Shown here piece after piece: positions 50,428-62,242 of a stretch of DNA of 64,000 nt. Position numbers and translations under genes: made by a program. Source of the stretch: Desulfobulbaceae bacterium (GTDB taxonomy: Bacteria > Desulfobacterota > Desulfobulbia > Desulfobulbales > Desulfocapsaceae). The stretch spans positions 62,001 through 126,000 of the forward strand of contig JAABSV010000002.1 in the NCBI GenBank assembly GCA_011390165.1. The letters run 5' to 3'. The notes below the pieces were generated by a model. It was given only the letters and a program-made list of their open reading frames with translations, was not told where the DNA came from and made no database searches. How positions within the stretch are numbered: the stretch's first letter is position 1; the number at the start of each line of letters is the position of its first letter.

Positions 50428-51171
50428 ATGACGCAGCATCAAGACGACAACATCATCATCCACCCCCGTCGTGGACGGGGGGAGAAATCCCTGCCGGAAA
50501 ATGGGCTGCTTTTCGTCAACCCGGCCGAGGCGGCCTCGGCCCTCACCACTCTCCGAAAAAAGGGTGGCAAAAAACGCAAACTCTTCCACTCCGGCCTGGT
50601 GGTGGCGCCTGAAGAGGAATTTTTCGCTGCCGGCCCGGCCATCGGGGCACCCATGGCTGTGTTGACTCTGGAAAAGCTGGTGGTGCTCGGGGTCAAACGG
50701 TTGGTTCTCTGCGGCTGGTGCGGCGCGGTTGCCTCGGAGTTGCGGATCGGTGATATCATTGTTCCGGAACTGGCTGAAGCAGGTGAGGGGACCTCCCCCT
50801 ATTACCCTGCCCCCCGACCGCTCCGACCACACCATGGTCTGCGCCGCGAACTGCTCGATCTGCTTCAGGAGCGGGGGCTGGCGGCTGCCGGCGGCACCCT
50901 CTGGTCCACCGATGCCCCCTATCGCGAAGAGCGGACGACCCTTGCCCGCCTGCACCACCAGCATGGGGTGGTGGCGGTGGATATGGAGTTCTCCGCCCTC
51001 TGCGCCGTGGCTGCGTTCCGTGGCATTGCCCTGGCAGCCGTACTGGTGGTCTCCGATGAACTCACCGGTGCGGCCTGGCGGCCTGGCTTTTCGATACCGC
51101 TGTTTCTCCGGCAAACCTCGGCAGTGCTGACGGCACTGCTCGATCAGGCAGGAAATTTACAGGAGGGGTGA
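50428..51171 (+). CDS. Nucleoside phosphorylase-like (PNP/UDP family) protein
   Basis: A 247-residue member of the nucleoside phosphorylase/nucleosidase superfamily. The fold's segments GPAIGAPMAVLTLEKLVVLG, LVLCGWCGAVASELRIGDIIV and VAVDMEFSALCAVA are clear; the last contains the MEF sequence that, with a following Glu/Ser, binds the ribose hydroxyls. Substrate is not predictable from this. The first about 60 residues are atypical. Its stop overlaps the start of rimO, so the two are translated together, an unusual pairing. Start at ATG 50428 has a GAAAGGGATG context with weak site. Confidence 0.82.
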   Translation: MTQHQDDNIIIHPRRGRGEKSLPENGLLFVNPAEAASALTTLRKKGGKKRKLFHSGLVVAPEEEFFAAGPAIGAPMAVLTLEKLVVLGVKRLVLCGWCGAVASELRIGDIIVPELAEAGEGTSPYYPAPRPLRPHHGLRRELLDLLQERGLAAAGGTLWSTDAPYREERTTLARLHHQHGVVAVDMEFSALCAVAAFRGIALAAVLVVSDELTGAAWRPGFSIPLFLRQTSAVLTALLDQAGNLQEG

Positions 51172-56652: not shown

Positions 56653-56742
56653 ACCCCGGCGCGGGAGTGTGTCTGACAATGCACTGCGGCACCCTGTAGC
56701 GGTCCCGCAGAAGAACTTTGAAACAGTCTGGAGAGGATGATT

Positions 56743-57747
56743 ATGACGATACGAATAGGGATAAACGGTTTTGGCAGGATCGGCAGGAACATTTTTCGCG
56801 CCATCGACAAGGATCCGGCCTTTGCCGACATTGAAGTGGTGGCGATCAATGACCTGACCGACAATGCCGTACTTGCCCACCTGCTCAAGTACGATTCGGT
56901 GATGGGTGTGTACGCCAGTTCCGTTGAGAGTAGCGAACAGGGTATCGTGGTCGATGGCCGGCAGGTGGCAGTTTCCAGCCACCGTAATCCGGCAGAGGTC
57001 CCCTGGGGAGATCTGGGGGTTGACTATGTTGCCGAATGTACCGGACGTTTTGTTGATGCTGAATCGGCTCAGGGCCACATCGATGCCGGCGCCGGCAAGG
57101 TGGTCATTTCCGCTCCGGCCAAGGGCTCCATCAAGACCTTCGTGATGGGGGTGAACGAGGACGAATATGATGCCACCCTCCACCACATCGTCTCCAACGC
57201 CTCCTGCACCACCAATTGCCTGGCCCCCTTTGCCAAGGTGATTCTGGATAATTTCGGGATCAAACGAGGATTGATGACCACCGTGCACGCCTATACCGGC
57301 GACCAGCGGCTGCTCGATTTTCCCCACACCGACCTGCGTCGGGCCCGGGCCGCTGCCATGTCGATGATCCCCACCAAGACCGGGGCGGCGGCAGCGGTAT
57401 CATTGGTCATTCCGGAGCTGAAGGGGAAATTTGATGGATTGGCAGTGCGGGTACCGACCCCGACCGTATCGCTCGTCGACGCGGTGATGGAGGTGGAGCG
57501 CGATACCACGGTGGCCGAAGTGAACCAGGCCCTCAAAGAGGCCGCCAACCGCTATCTCGGCTATTGTGAACTGCCGCTGGTTTCCATAGATTTCCAGGGG
57601 GACCCCCGCTCGTCGATTATCGATAGCCAGTCAACCAAGGTGATCGGTTCGTCGGTGAAGGTGATGAGCTGGTACGATAATGAGTGGGGCTATTCCAACC
57701 GGATGCTGGACCTGATACTCCATATGGAGGCGAACAAGGCGCTCTGA
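56743..57747 (+). CDS. gap: Glyceraldehyde-3-phosphate dehydrogenase
   Basis: A 334-residue type I GAPDH. The NAD-binding start is IRIGINGFGRIGRNIFRAI, the active site is SNASCTTNCLAP (catalytic Cys about 152), the catalytic His is in TVHAYTGDQRL, and the phosphate site in SMIPTKTGAAAAV. It oxidises glyceraldehyde 3-phosphate with NAD and phosphate. The ATG at 56743 is used because it begins the conserved domain and has a better-spaced GGAG site than the ATG at 56737. It lies between the glycogen-synthase-like and PPDK-like genes. Confidence 0.96.
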   Translation: MTIRIGINGFGRIGRNIFRAIDKDPAFADIEVVAINDLTDNAVLAHLLKYDSVMGVYASSVESSEQGIVVDGRQVAVSSHRNPAEVPWGDLGVDYVAECTGRFVDAESAQGHIDAGAGKVVISAPAKGSIKTFVMGVNEDEYDATLHHIVSNASCTTNCLAPFAKVILDNFGIKRGLMTTVHAYTGDQRLLDFPHTDLRRARAAAMSMIPTKTGAAAAVSLVIPELKGKFDGLAVRVPTPTVSLVDAVMEVERDTTVAEVNQALKEAANRYLGYCELPLVSIDFQGDPRSSIIDSQSTKVIGSSVKVMSWYDNEWGYSNRMLDLILHMEANKAL

Positions 57748-57973: not shown

Positions 57974-60900
57974 ATGGATGCGAACAATGAGGTCAGGGTG
58001 ATTGAGTCCGATGCCCTGAAGGCGAACCTGCTGGAGACAGCCGGTGAGGTGGAGATAGAGCCGGAACTTCGCCTGCTGCTGACCGTCGTCGAGAATTACA
58101 ACGGCCTCCACTCGACCCTTGAAAAGCTGCTGCTCGAGGTGTGCCACCCGTTCCGCAACTGGAAGATCATCCTGCCAAGCCTGCGCAGTTTCGCCCTGAA
58201 GAATATCCACCACTATCGCCTCCATCCCCGCGGACCGGAAACCTTTCGACTCTTTGCCGGCCTTTTTCTCGAGGCCATTGTCGACAGCCAGCGCGATCCG
58301 GCCCTGCTCGGTCAGGCGGTGGCAGCAAAAATGGTCTGGCTGGACCGGATGGTCGAGCGGTTCGACACTGCCGATCTCGATCGTTTTGGCCCGGAACTGA
58401 ATCGGGTCTTTTCCCGCTTCGTCGACCTTGACCGCAATGATCGCCCGGTCTTCATGCATCTCGTGCAGGGCCAGCATCAGCCAGGCAGACTTGCCGGCCG
58501 GATTCTCGCCATTGCCGGCAATGACTTCCCCCTCTTCCCCCTGGCCGAACTGATGCGGACGGTCCTCAGCCGCTGCTATGAGTACTGGCTGCGTGAGGAT
58601 GACCCGTTGCCCTGGTTTCTTGACCGCTGCGCCATACCGGTGGCCGATTTCACCTCATCCCAGCTCTTCCAGGCCATTTCCCATGCCCAGATGCGCGAAC
58701 ACCTCGGCCAGTTGCGGCAGATGGACCTGGCCGCTGCGCCAAAGGCCAGCCTGGAACGAATGCTGACCCTGCCCGACCATATCGCCACCGTCAAGTACTA
58801 TCGGGAGATGCCCAACAAACTTGGCGAGGCGGAAGAGGCCTTCAGCCGGCTGGAACAGCCTGGCCGGCAGCCCCTGCACCATTTCCGCGAAAACCGCAAG
58901 CTGCTTTTCCTCTTCAAGATCATGGATACCAAGGGGCTCCAGCTGATCCACGAGGAGACCCTCAGAGAGATCAACCGCAGTCTGGTGCAGCTTATCCGCC
59001 AGCAGAGTTTCGAAGAGATTGAGGAGTTTCTGCTCACTACCTTCGCCCTGCTCAAGGCCAACGTCAAGCAGTATCCCCACACCTCCCTGCAGTGCATTCA
59101 GGTTCTCGGTGGTGAGGTGTTTGACCGGGGCAACAGCCGGATGGTCGAGGCCTTTCTCTGGGGGGTGGTGCGCTTCGGTTTTCAGCATGCCAGTGTCGTC
59201 GGGGTCGACGAGAACTGGCAGCCCCTGGCCAACCCTGCCCATCTCGCCAACATCCGGGTCTGGCTCCATCTCATCATGCGTGAACCGAAATGGTGCTCGA
59301 CCCTCTTTTCGGCACTGATCATCCATGTCAAGCTTTCCGGCACCTGCATCAAGGATACCGACCTCTTTCAGCGGGATATCACCCAGCTGCTCAACCACCC
59401 CATTGAACCGATCTACAATCTGGCAAAACAATTCACCAAGCTCATGCCGGTTTTCTTTAATGAAATCGGATCAGAAGGTGAGTTGCGGGATGTCTCGACC
59501 GAACTTGACGAGATCCATCGCCGTGGGGATGTGCTGATCCACTTCCTCCGTAAGCAGGGACATGTCGAGAGTTCCAACCTGATAGTCGATTTTATCCAAG
59601 CGATCTTTCTGTTCTGGAAGAGCCGCGACAAGACCCTGCTCATCCCCTTCATCCCGGAGGAGGTGTACAGCCAGATCCGGACCAGTGGCGAGTATATCGA
59701 CGAACAGTTTCAGCTCAGCCAGCGACTCTGGCGGGAGATGAGGATCGAGCGGGTTCAGGATCTGATCAACATCGATCATGAGCGGTTGACCAGCTTCTTC
59801 GCCTCCCAGGAAGATCTCCAGGCCAGCGAATTGCGCCGCTGCGAATTGCTCATCCGAATGTACCGGCTGCTCTATAAAAAGTACAAGCTCGGCTTCCAGC
59901 AACTCCACGCCGAGATCAGCCGGGCGGTGGCCGACGGTTTTCCGGAGATGGAGCGGCTGCTCGATGAGCTGAGCGAGGCCAATACCGAGCAGAGCCTCGA
60001 GGCCCTGCTGGTCGCCCTGGAAGGTCTGCAGGCGATCACCCTCTCCAAGGAGACCTTTCCGGCCCAGGAGGATATCTATTACAAACGGCATATCGCCGTT
60101 GATATCCCATCGGTGTACGGCCGCTACAAGGAAAAGAAGTTCGATGCCCTGAGCCTGACCTTCCGCCTGGAAAACCTGGCCAATCTCTATCTGGAAAAGC
60201 TGCCCGAGACAGTTAACCTGTCGATCATCACCCAGGCCACATTCTTCGGTATTGTCCGCTGTATCAAGATTTTCATGCGGGCACTGGCGGTGGACGGGAT
60301 CACCTCCCGGAAACTCTCCACCCACCTCTCCCTGCTGGAAAATTCTCTCAAGGTGAGACGGTTTTCCTACACCCAGTATCTGGATATCCTCCGCGGTATG
60401 TCGGAGGGGGTCAAGGATATCATCTACGCCTTTTATACCAATATCCATCAGAACAACCTCTCGATCATCATTCCCCAGATCACCAAGGAGAATATTCTGG
60501 AGAAATTCGCCACTCTCTATGACGAAGAGGAGATGGCGACCACCATTCAGCGTCTCTCCGAAGTCTTTCTGCGTGAGCTGATTGCCTCGACCTTCGGTCT
60601 GCAGCATCTGGACAACTTCATTCTCCGGATTCTCCAGACCCTGGAAAACCAGAAGGACCTTCTCGACCAGAAAAAGCTCGACCTGCTGATGACCTATAAC
60701 CCGGAACGGGCCCTGTCGCTCCTCCACCGCCCCAACCCATTCACCAACAACCTCATCCACCTGGGCAACAAGGGGTTCAATCTGGCCACCCTGATCGCCG
60801 ACGGCAAGCGGGTCCCGCCGGCCTTTGTGATCACCACCGAGGTGTTCCGCTGCCGGGAGATCGTCTTCGATTACCCGAAGACCCGCGAAGAGTTCATGCA

Positions 60901-62242
60901 GCGGGTGCGCGGGTCCCTCACCGAGTTGGAGGAACTGACCGGCCGAACCTTCGGTTCACCGGAACGGCCTCTGCTCTTGTCGGTGCGCAGCGGCGGGGCG
61001 ATATCCATGCCGGGGATGATGGCGACTGTCCACAACGTCGGCTTCAACGAAGAGCTCATCGGCGAATGTATTGCCAACCACGGTAATCCCTATCTCGCCT
61101 GGGATAACTATCGCCGTTTTCTCCAGTCCTGGGCGATGATCTCCGGGGTGGGGCGGGAGGATTTCCAGGTCCTGATGAATAAGGCCAAGGCGAAACACAA
61201 CGTTTCCCTGAAGCGACACTTCTCGCCGGCGCAGATGCAGGATCTGGCCCTCTCCTACCAGAGACTGATCCGACAACGTGGTCTGGGCATCCCCGACGAT
61301 CCCTGGCTGCAACTGGTCAATGCCATCGAATTGGTTCTCGACTCCTGGGAGACCAAAAAGGCGGTGGATTACCGAAAGATCATGGATGTTTCCGACTCCT
61401 GGGGGACGGCAGTGATCGTTCAGGCGATGGTCTTCGGTAACAAGAACGAGCAGTCCGGAGCCGGGGTTGTCTTTACCGCCCATCCCTACCGGAAGGTGCA
61501 GCGGGTTGCCCTGTGGGGTGATTACGCCTACGGCGATCAGGGTGAGGATATTGTCTCCGGGCTGGTCTCCAGCTGTGCGGTATCGGTGGAACAGGCGAAG
61601 ATCGACGGCCGTTCGGTGGAGGATACCCTGGAACTGCGCTTTCCGAAAATCTATGCCCGCCTGCTGGAGATATCCCGCGAACTGGTGTACGACAAGCGCT
61701 GGAACCCCCAGGAGATCGAGTTCACCTTCGAGGGGGCGGCGGCGGATAAGCTCTTTATCCTGCAGACCCGGGACATGATTACGATTAAAAAGAAGGAACA
61801 TCTGAACGTCTTCGTCGAGTCGCCGGCTCTTGCTGCCGCTCATCTCGGCCGGGGGGTCGGGGTCTCCGGTTCCGCCCTTTCGGGTCGGGCGGTCTTTACC
61901 GAAGAGAACATCCGCATCCTGCGGCGGGAGGATCCGGACACTTCACTCATCCTGATCCGTCAGGATACTGTCCCGGAGGATATCAAGGCGGTGAGCCAGG
62001 CCGATGGCCTGCTTACCTCACGGGGCGGACAGACCTCGCACGCCTCGGTGGTGGCTGTCCGTCTGGAAAAAACCTGTGTCGTCGGCTGTCGCAGCCTGAA
62101 GGTCTATGAGGCGGAGAACTACTGTGAGATAGCCGGGGTGCGGATCGGCTTTGGTGACCCGGTCTCCATCGACGGTAGAAACGGCCAGTTGTTACGCGGA
62201 GCCCACCAGATTATTGAAGAGTACCATATATTGCCCATCTGA
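57974..62242 (+). CDS. PPDK-like protein: unknown N-terminal region, ATP-grasp domain, phosphohistidine domain
   Basis: A 1422-residue protein. Residues 1 to about 920 are a mostly helical region with no domain I recognise. From about 925 (HLGNKGFNLATLIADGKRVP, SVRSGGAISMPGMMATVHNV, QMVFG-like IVQAMVFGNKN, GAGVVFTAHP) to about 1265 (FILQTRDM) lies a PPDK-type nucleotide-binding domain. A swivelling phosphohistidine domain follows with TSRGGQTSHASVVAVRLE; His1356 is the expected phosphorylated residue. The chain ends 66 residues later, so the pyruvate/PEP-binding barrel of PPDK and PEP synthase is absent. It can thus transfer phosphate from ATP to an unknown acceptor, perhaps bound by the N-terminal region. 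ATG 57974 has a GGAGGG site. gap precedes it. Confidence 0.8.
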   Translation: MDANNEVRVIESDALKANLLETAGEVEIEPELRLLLTVVENYNGLHSTLEKLLLEVCHPFRNWKIILPSLRSFALKNIHHYRLHPRGPETFRLFAGLFLEAIVDSQRDPALLGQAVAAKMVWLDRMVERFDTADLDRFGPELNRVFSRFVDLDRNDRPVFMHLVQGQHQPGRLAGRILAIAGNDFPLFPLAELMRTVLSRCYEYWLREDDPLPWFLDRCAIPVADFTSSQLFQAISHAQMREHLGQLRQMDLAAAPKASLERMLTLPDHIATVKYYREMPNKLGEAEEAFSRLEQPGRQPLHHFRENRKLLFLFKIMDTKGLQLIHEETLREINRSLVQLIRQQSFEEIEEFLLTTFALLKANVKQYPHTSLQCIQVLGGEVFDRGNSRMVEAFLWGVVRFGFQHASVVGVDENWQPLANPAHLANIRVWLHLIMREPKWCSTLFSALIIHVKLSGTCIKDTDLFQRDITQLLNHPIEPIYNLAKQFTKLMPVFFNEIGSEGELRDVSTELDEIHRRGDVLIHFLRKQGHVESSNLIVDFIQAIFLFWKSRDKTLLIPFIPEEVYSQIRTSGEYIDEQFQLSQRLWREMRIERVQDLINIDHERLTSFFASQEDLQASELRRCELLIRMYRLLYKKYKLGFQQLHAEISRAVADGFPEMERLLDELSEANTEQSLEALLVALEGLQAITLSKETFPAQEDIYYKRHIAVDIPSVYGRYKEKKFDALSLTFRLENLANLYLEKLPETVNLSIITQATFFGIVRCIKIFMRALAVDGITSRKLSTHLSLLENSLKVRRFSYTQYLDILRGMSEGVKDIIYAFYTNIHQNNLSIIIPQITKENILEKFATLYDEEEMATTIQRLSEVFLRELIASTFGLQHLDNFILRILQTLENQKDLLDQKKLDLLMTYNPERALSLLHRPNPFTNNLIHLGNKGFNLATLIADGKRVPPAFVITTEVFRCREIVFDYPKTREEFMQRVRGSLTELEELTGRTFGSPERPLLLSVRSGGAISMPGMMATVHNVGFNEELIGECIANHGNPYLAWDNYRRFLQSWAMISGVGREDFQVLMNKAKAKHNVSLKRHFSPAQMQDLALSYQRLIRQRGLGIPDDPWLQLVNAIELVLDSWETKKAVDYRKIMDVSDSWGTAVIVQAMVFGNKNEQSGAGVVFTAHPYRKVQRVALWGDYAYGDQGEDIVSGLVSSCAVSVEQAKIDGRSVEDTLELRFPKIYARLLEISRELVYDKRWNPQEIEFTFEGAAADKLFILQTRDMITIKKKEHLNVFVESPALAAAHLGRGVGVSGSALSGRAVFTEENIRILRREDPDTSLILIRQDTVPEDIKAVSQADGLLTSRGGQTSHASVVAVRLEKTCVVGCRSLKVYEAENYCEIAGVRIGFGDPVSIDGRNGQLLRGAHQIIEEYHILPI

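Follow-up and report, generated by a model that had tools for sequence, protein, structure and literature searches.

The window analyzed here, a stretch of 64,000 nucleotides from a Desulfobulbaceae bacterium (assembly GCA_011390165.1, contig JAABSV010000002.1, positions 62,001 to 126,000), carries the gene for a PPDK-like dikinase that lacks the phosphoenolpyruvate (PEP) barrel of PPDK. The phylum-wide partner of this dikinase is GapL, a paralogue of GAPDH, and not GlgA, a relative of which is encoded upstream of it in the window. Tentatively, we favor a reading in which this ATP-dependent His-swivel dikinase and GapL cooperate in glycolysis/gluconeogenesis at the GAPDH/PGK step, probably through phosphorylation of GapL by the dikinase. 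This reading builds on features that we observe directly, namely the domain make-up of the protein, the absence of the barrel, the invariance of both its dikinase site and a second site, and the co-occurrence and linkage with gapL.

We took the ATG at 57974 as the start of the dikinase gene, rather than the GTG of an alternative, longer frame from 57878, because a GGAG lies directly upstream of the ATG. In Pfam searches, the protein matched PPDK_N (best stretch residues 972 to 1275; E = 1.8e-26) and the PEP-utilizers mobile domain, the phosphohistidine swivel (residues 1325 to 1404; E = 7.4e-16), while the PEP-utilizers_C barrel (PF02896) was not found in it; the chain stops 18 residues past the swivel match. 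Residues 927 to 1410 align with residues 18 to 509 of C. symbiosum PPDK in the PDB (E = 1.8e-73; the PPDK residue numbers used here are taken from this alignment), which places His1356 opposite H455. The only PF02896 barrel in the window's genome, the assembly of which is 91% complete, lies within the frame of a true PPDK (931 amino acids) on a different contig. Hence no separate barrel gene, whether orphan or adjacent, is seen at this completeness. The protein is thus confirmed as a PPDK-derived His-swivel dikinase without a barrel, and the absence of the barrel argues for an acceptor other than PEP. A preliminary description of the window had proposed just this, recognizing ATP-grasp and phosphohistidine domains in the order of PPDK, a chain ending right after the swivel, and a non-PEP acceptor, and our searches agree on each point.

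The dikinase belongs to a conserved family. It keeps equivalents of K22, R92, E323, Q335, R337, and H455 of PPDK, which we take to be functional residues of that enzyme. Its own K933, R1005, E1249, Q1264, R1266, and H1356 were identical in all 136 rows of an alignment of 135 homologues and the query, so that no homologue had lost the catalytic His. A match was present in 57/57 genomes of the window's order, the Desulfobulbales, most of them near full length and some broken by contig ends, and together with the invariant catalytic residues this argues that the gene is neither a chance frame nor dead. Across the phylum, 84 of 297 sampled genomes carried the long form, as set by a cut-off of our own choosing. 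Named relatives were mostly labeled Desulfobulbaceae, Desulfocapsa, and kin; the scan of named genomes used patterns drawn from the window's dikinase alone and therefore reaches close relatives. No plasmid matched the N terminus of the dikinase, and no paper listed in a literature search described this dikinase or its pairing with GapL.

Nor is the family a PPDK that decayed recently. When the domains common to both types were placed in a tree (48 rows), one branch with support 100/100 split 26 dikinases from 22 PPDKs, taken from Desulfobacterota plus one PDB sequence, which points to a separate, old lineage. Both types have an ATP-grasp domain followed by a swivel (PPDK: TIGR01828; C. symbiosum 1KBL). 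However, the dikinase scores 347 bits on TIGR01828 against a cut-off of 843, has Glu at the position of PPDK D321 in 134/136 rows, and carries about 925 additional N-terminal residues in place of a C-terminal barrel. Two irregular copies were seen. In one genome, the gene is spread over two adjacent frames of 652 and 809 amino acids, with the break near query residue 624 (G119:C1:682938-687069), and elsewhere a complete dikinase gene is preceded, at a distance of about 1.5 kb, by a 97-amino-acid frame matching query residues 10 to 92, perhaps a partial duplication (L086:7980-8273).

The distribution of the dikinase points to a partner. Among the 297 genomes, the long dikinase and GapL occurred together in 83, the dikinase alone in 1 (G167, 76% complete), GapL alone in 2, and neither in 211 (Fisher p = 2e-70, kinship not being taken into account). 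In the six families of mixed content (f16, f24, f25, f47, f63, and f68), all 19 dikinase-negative genomes lacked GapL as well. The two genes are also neighbors outside the order, where 62 of 71 dikinase-gapL pairs lay within 500 bp (53 on the same strand, 9 on opposite strands) and 2 more within 1.3 kb; the remaining 7 were on separate contigs, some perhaps owing to assembly breaks. Full-length operon layouts there read gap-dikinase-gapL-pgk-tpiA-secG. Within the order, the genes are unlinked and yet both were kept in 12/12 cases.

Such a pattern could reflect no more than inheritance of an ancestral glycolytic cluster that was lost jointly, in which case the acceptor would be unrelated or the dikinase would regulate some other enzyme in the manner of VadK. 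We consider this doubtful. Since 64/71 pairs outside the order are adjacent, co-loss may indeed have been a single event. However, the genes have stayed adjacent through rearrangements of their order and orientation (of the pairs within 1.3 kb, 53 share a strand and 11 do not), and both genes are kept when unlinked, in the 12 cases within the order and in the 7 pairs on separate contigs. These cases speak against joint deletion as a full explanation. Moreover, the other members of the supposed cluster are less faithful. In a survey of 90 dikinase loci with flanks (54 from Desulfobulbales, 36 from outside the order), pgk lay near the dikinase in just 19/36, tpiA in 14/36, and secG in 14/36 of the outside loci, and canonical gap was missing altogether from 2 of the 24 dikinase genomes examined. 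In these two genomes (G083 and G119), which are small, complete, and members of family f42, GapL was the sole match to a canonical GAPDH query at E = 1e-20, so that the dikinase there follows GapL and not canonical GAPDH.

GapL itself, of about 419 amino acids, scores 332 bits on TIGR01534 against a GAPDH-I cut-off of 367. It retains the Cys and His of catalysis as well as the VR-PT motif Arg, each in 33/33 rows, alongside invariant residues and insertions of its own; in all 33 rows, Arg occupies the column before the NAD-type Asp and Leu replaces the Pro before the T-x-TG motif. No clean NADP signature could be read from these 33 rows, since the column of the NAD-type Asp itself varies. In the genome of the window, gapL is found on a contig other than that of the dikinase and is followed by genes for a GNAT-type acetyltransferase, pgk, and tpiA (these three named by eye from their translations). 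One single-contig genome (G155) has two gapL copies of equal score (C1:505488-506711 and C1:1778716-1779939), of which only one adjoins the dikinase gene.

The acceptor would presumably bind in the N-terminal region. Searched alone, residues 1 to 909 gave no match to Pfam even with the E cut-off raised to 10, every best NCBIfam stretch in the protein begins at residue 929 or beyond, and a 65-row profile of residues 10 to 928 gave chance-level matches only in the PDB (best E = 0.41). The some 920 residues of no known family noted in the preliminary description are therefore borne out, at about 925, and a structure search gave no confident fold match. An AlphaFold2 (AF2) model of residues 10 to 928 (mean pLDDT, 86; pTM, 0.74) was nearly all helical. 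Roughly its first half weakly resembled importin/exportin-type solenoids (Foldseek E = 4.4e-4, TM 0.17; VIA-align Z up to 9.6), which makes it a candidate HEAT/importin-type alpha-solenoid; for helical repeats, such a likeness would support a fold class and not kinship. Modeled alone, residues 470 to 928 (pLDDT, 86) folded into helices plus one beta-hairpin, the strands of which are joined by a loop of low order; the best Foldseek match to this middle domain had an E of 0.51. VIA-align rows with Z up to 10.3 over 107 residues were helical-bundle matches, which we do not trust. Within the middle domain, 25 checked residues, namely those of two patches (residues 499 to 533 and 699 to 733) plus K636 and Y637, were identical in 136/136 rows and include many charged residues and His (Lys, Arg, His, Asp, and Glu), whereas residues 101 to 300 are much more variable. 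The patches vary no more than the dikinase site does, and we infer from this that the middle domain may have replaced the lost barrel as the destination of the phosphoryl group. It is a predicted delivery site, and we assume that its invariant residues cluster in space.

A precedent for a regulatory role is VadK (Rv1127c) of Mycobacterium tuberculosis, a barrel-less PPDK relative of about 50 kDa that is reported to autophosphorylate a His and to bind metabolic enzymes, and is proposed to regulate them through binding (PMC13400623). Like VadK as described there, the dikinase is PPDK-derived, has no barrel, and keeps the catalytic swivel His. In contrast, VadK is reported as ATP-grasp and swivel alone, to which the dikinase adds its N terminus of about 925 residues, and the partners of VadK are the methylcitrate enzymes rather than GapL. 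Other enzymes combine ATP-grasp and His swivel with a small-molecule, non-PEP acceptor, as reported for the two-component dikinase HpeHI (PMC12167813) and rifampin phosphotransferase (PMC4844700). Their acceptor parts are unlike that of the dikinase, and the rifampin phosphotransferase (RPH) model covers only its residues 1115 to 1215.

Judging from the conserved residues, the ATP-grasp domain would phosphorylate His1356 from ATP, with release of AMP and, with phosphate, pyrophosphate (PPi), as in PPDK. The swivel would then carry the phosphoryl group to the Lys/Arg/His-rich site of the middle domain, a site that would stand in for the barrel. The acceptor would most likely be GapL itself, with the N-terminal solenoid as its docking platform; we prefer GapL because the modeled solenoid seems suited to protein binding and because of the VadK precedent. 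Conceivably, the adenylate/PPi state of the cell would in this manner set GapL activity.

Several points weigh against this proposal. Two genomes of family f20 (G061 and G132; 79% and 62% complete) carry GapL and no dikinase N terminus; even a profile search found none there, nor in six more dikinase-negative genomes, including G097. Linked pairs can be lost by one deletion, so that co-loss is weaker evidence than the p value says, and in the order with unlinked genes no loss of either was seen. The solenoid matches are weak, with TM at most 0.2 and Z values under the level regarded as safe by the tool for helical repeats. Finally, the middle domain is conserved like an active site, and a protein acceptor would explain this no better than a small molecule would.

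Indeed, because the middle domain is so strictly conserved, a metabolite acceptor is nearly as likely as GapL. Possibly, a small phosphorylated acid such as 3-phosphoglycerate binds to the middle domain and has its carboxylate converted by the swivel His to an acyl phosphate, the substrate for reduction by GapL. The cycle might also run backward with AMP and PPi; either way, the pair would form a PPi-linked bypass of PGK. The 25 invariant residues look like a catalytic site, and GapL keeps the Cys, the His, and the VR-PT Arg in all 33 rows. An acyl-phosphate kinase beside a GAPDH-fold dehydrogenase is moreover a classical pairing, as in PGK-GAPDH, LysC-Asd, and ArgB-ArgC. On the other hand, an ordinary pgk lies in the same operon and in the gapL cluster of the window's genome, so that this step is already served, and a solenoid of about 475 residues would be superfluous for a small acceptor. 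Nor is the dikinase tied to AMP and PPi supplied by the activation of sulfate, AprA being absent from 24/84 dikinase genomes. Over the 297 genomes, AprA and the dikinase occurred together in 60, the dikinase only in 24, AprA only in 57 (of 117 AprA-positive genomes), and neither in 156; we thus rejected recycling of AMP/PPi in sulfate reducers, as the distribution of AprA does not track the dikinase. The most specific form of the idea, in which dikinase and GapL together act as one PPi-linked 3-phosphoglycerate/1,3-bisphosphoglycerate dikinase that channels its product to the GAPDH paralogue and has a new acceptor domain for the barrel, seems unlikely to us.

In the window, the gene order is glgA-like, canonical gap, dikinase (Table 1), and the preliminary description had raised a glycogen or sugar acceptor from these neighbors. 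Both genes are indeed there; however, this GAPDH is the canonical one, and the co-occurring partner GapL lies elsewhere. Canonical GAPDH lay within 500 bp of the dikinase in 29/54 Desulfobulbales loci and 12/36 outside loci. A glgA gene was near it in 34/54 Desulfobulbales loci, in keeping with its place two genes upstream in the window, and in 1/36 outside, so that the synteny is nearly confined to the order. Glucan water dikinase also has a His domain and a large N-terminal part, but its CBM45 modules and its His domain preceding the nucleotide domain have no counterpart here, Pfam finding no carbohydrate-binding module in the whole protein or in residues 1 to 909 alone. We therefore regard a glycogen or glucan dikinase as highly improbable, the least credible of the readings weighed. 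Outside the order, L137 (3873-5477) is the sole locus where the dikinase has a neighbor of the glgA family.

Upstream flanks of loci L120 to L157 place the dikinase cluster after rpoN-hpf-rapZ-EIIA(Man)-rimI-type genes in 10 to 14 of the 36 outside loci. The rapZ, EIIA(Man)-like, and hpf genes might hint that the swivel His passes its phosphoryl group to the EIIA(Man)-like protein, as an ATP-driven entry to a chain resembling the phosphotransferase system. This is very unlikely, as neither HPr nor an enzyme I barrel was found in the genome of the window, and the EIIA cluster was found in 0/54 Desulfobulbales loci. Farther upstream in the window, positions 50428 to 51171 encode an AMP-nucleosidase/DeoD-like protein that scores far under all family cut-offs.

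Table 1. Features of the dikinase gene and its upstream neighbors in the window
Feature	Position	Strand	Evidence or remark
PPDK-like dikinase without PEP barrel (P0001), 1422 amino acids	57974..62242	+	ATG start
N-terminal alpha-solenoid-like part, residues ~25-499	58046..59470	+	AF2 model, Foldseek, VIA-align; predicted, fold class only
Middle helical domain with beta-hairpin, residues ~500-925	59471..60748	+	Model; without confident structural match
Invariant patch 1, residues 499-533	59468..59572	+	E501 R505 T509 D512 E513 R526 K527 H530 E532, 136/136
Invariant patch 2, residues 699-733, hairpin with flexible loop	60068..60172	+	Alignment, model; E699 K704 R705 H706 I711 P712 S713 Y715 G716 Y718 E720 K722 R731 E733, 136/136
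PPDK-type ATP-grasp, residues 927-1275	60752..61798	+	Pfam, PDB alignment, invariant residues
Phosphohistidine swivel domain, residues 1325-1404	61946..62185	+	Pfam
His1356 codon, counterpart of C. symbiosum PPDK H455	62039..62041	+	PDB alignment
Canonical GAPDH, 226 bp upstream of dikinase	56737..57747	+	Family searches
Divergent GlgA-like glycosyltransferase, 575 amino acids	54925..56652	+	TIGR02095 254 bits vs cut-off 328

In conclusion, a large group of anaerobes appears to carry a conserved, uncharacterized dikinase beside an uncharacterized form of GAPDH in central carbon metabolism, and the link to GapL gives the acceptor question a candidate that a single purification could test. If GapL is phosphorylated, a phosphohistidine dikinase would control glycolysis/gluconeogenesis in a new way, much as VadK acts in its own pathway. 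If a metabolite is the acceptor, a step counted among the best known in biochemistry would gain a new reaction, and a PPi-linked 3-phosphoglycerate dikinase, if true, would provide a third route over the PGK/GAPDH step, besides PGK and the bypass enzymes.

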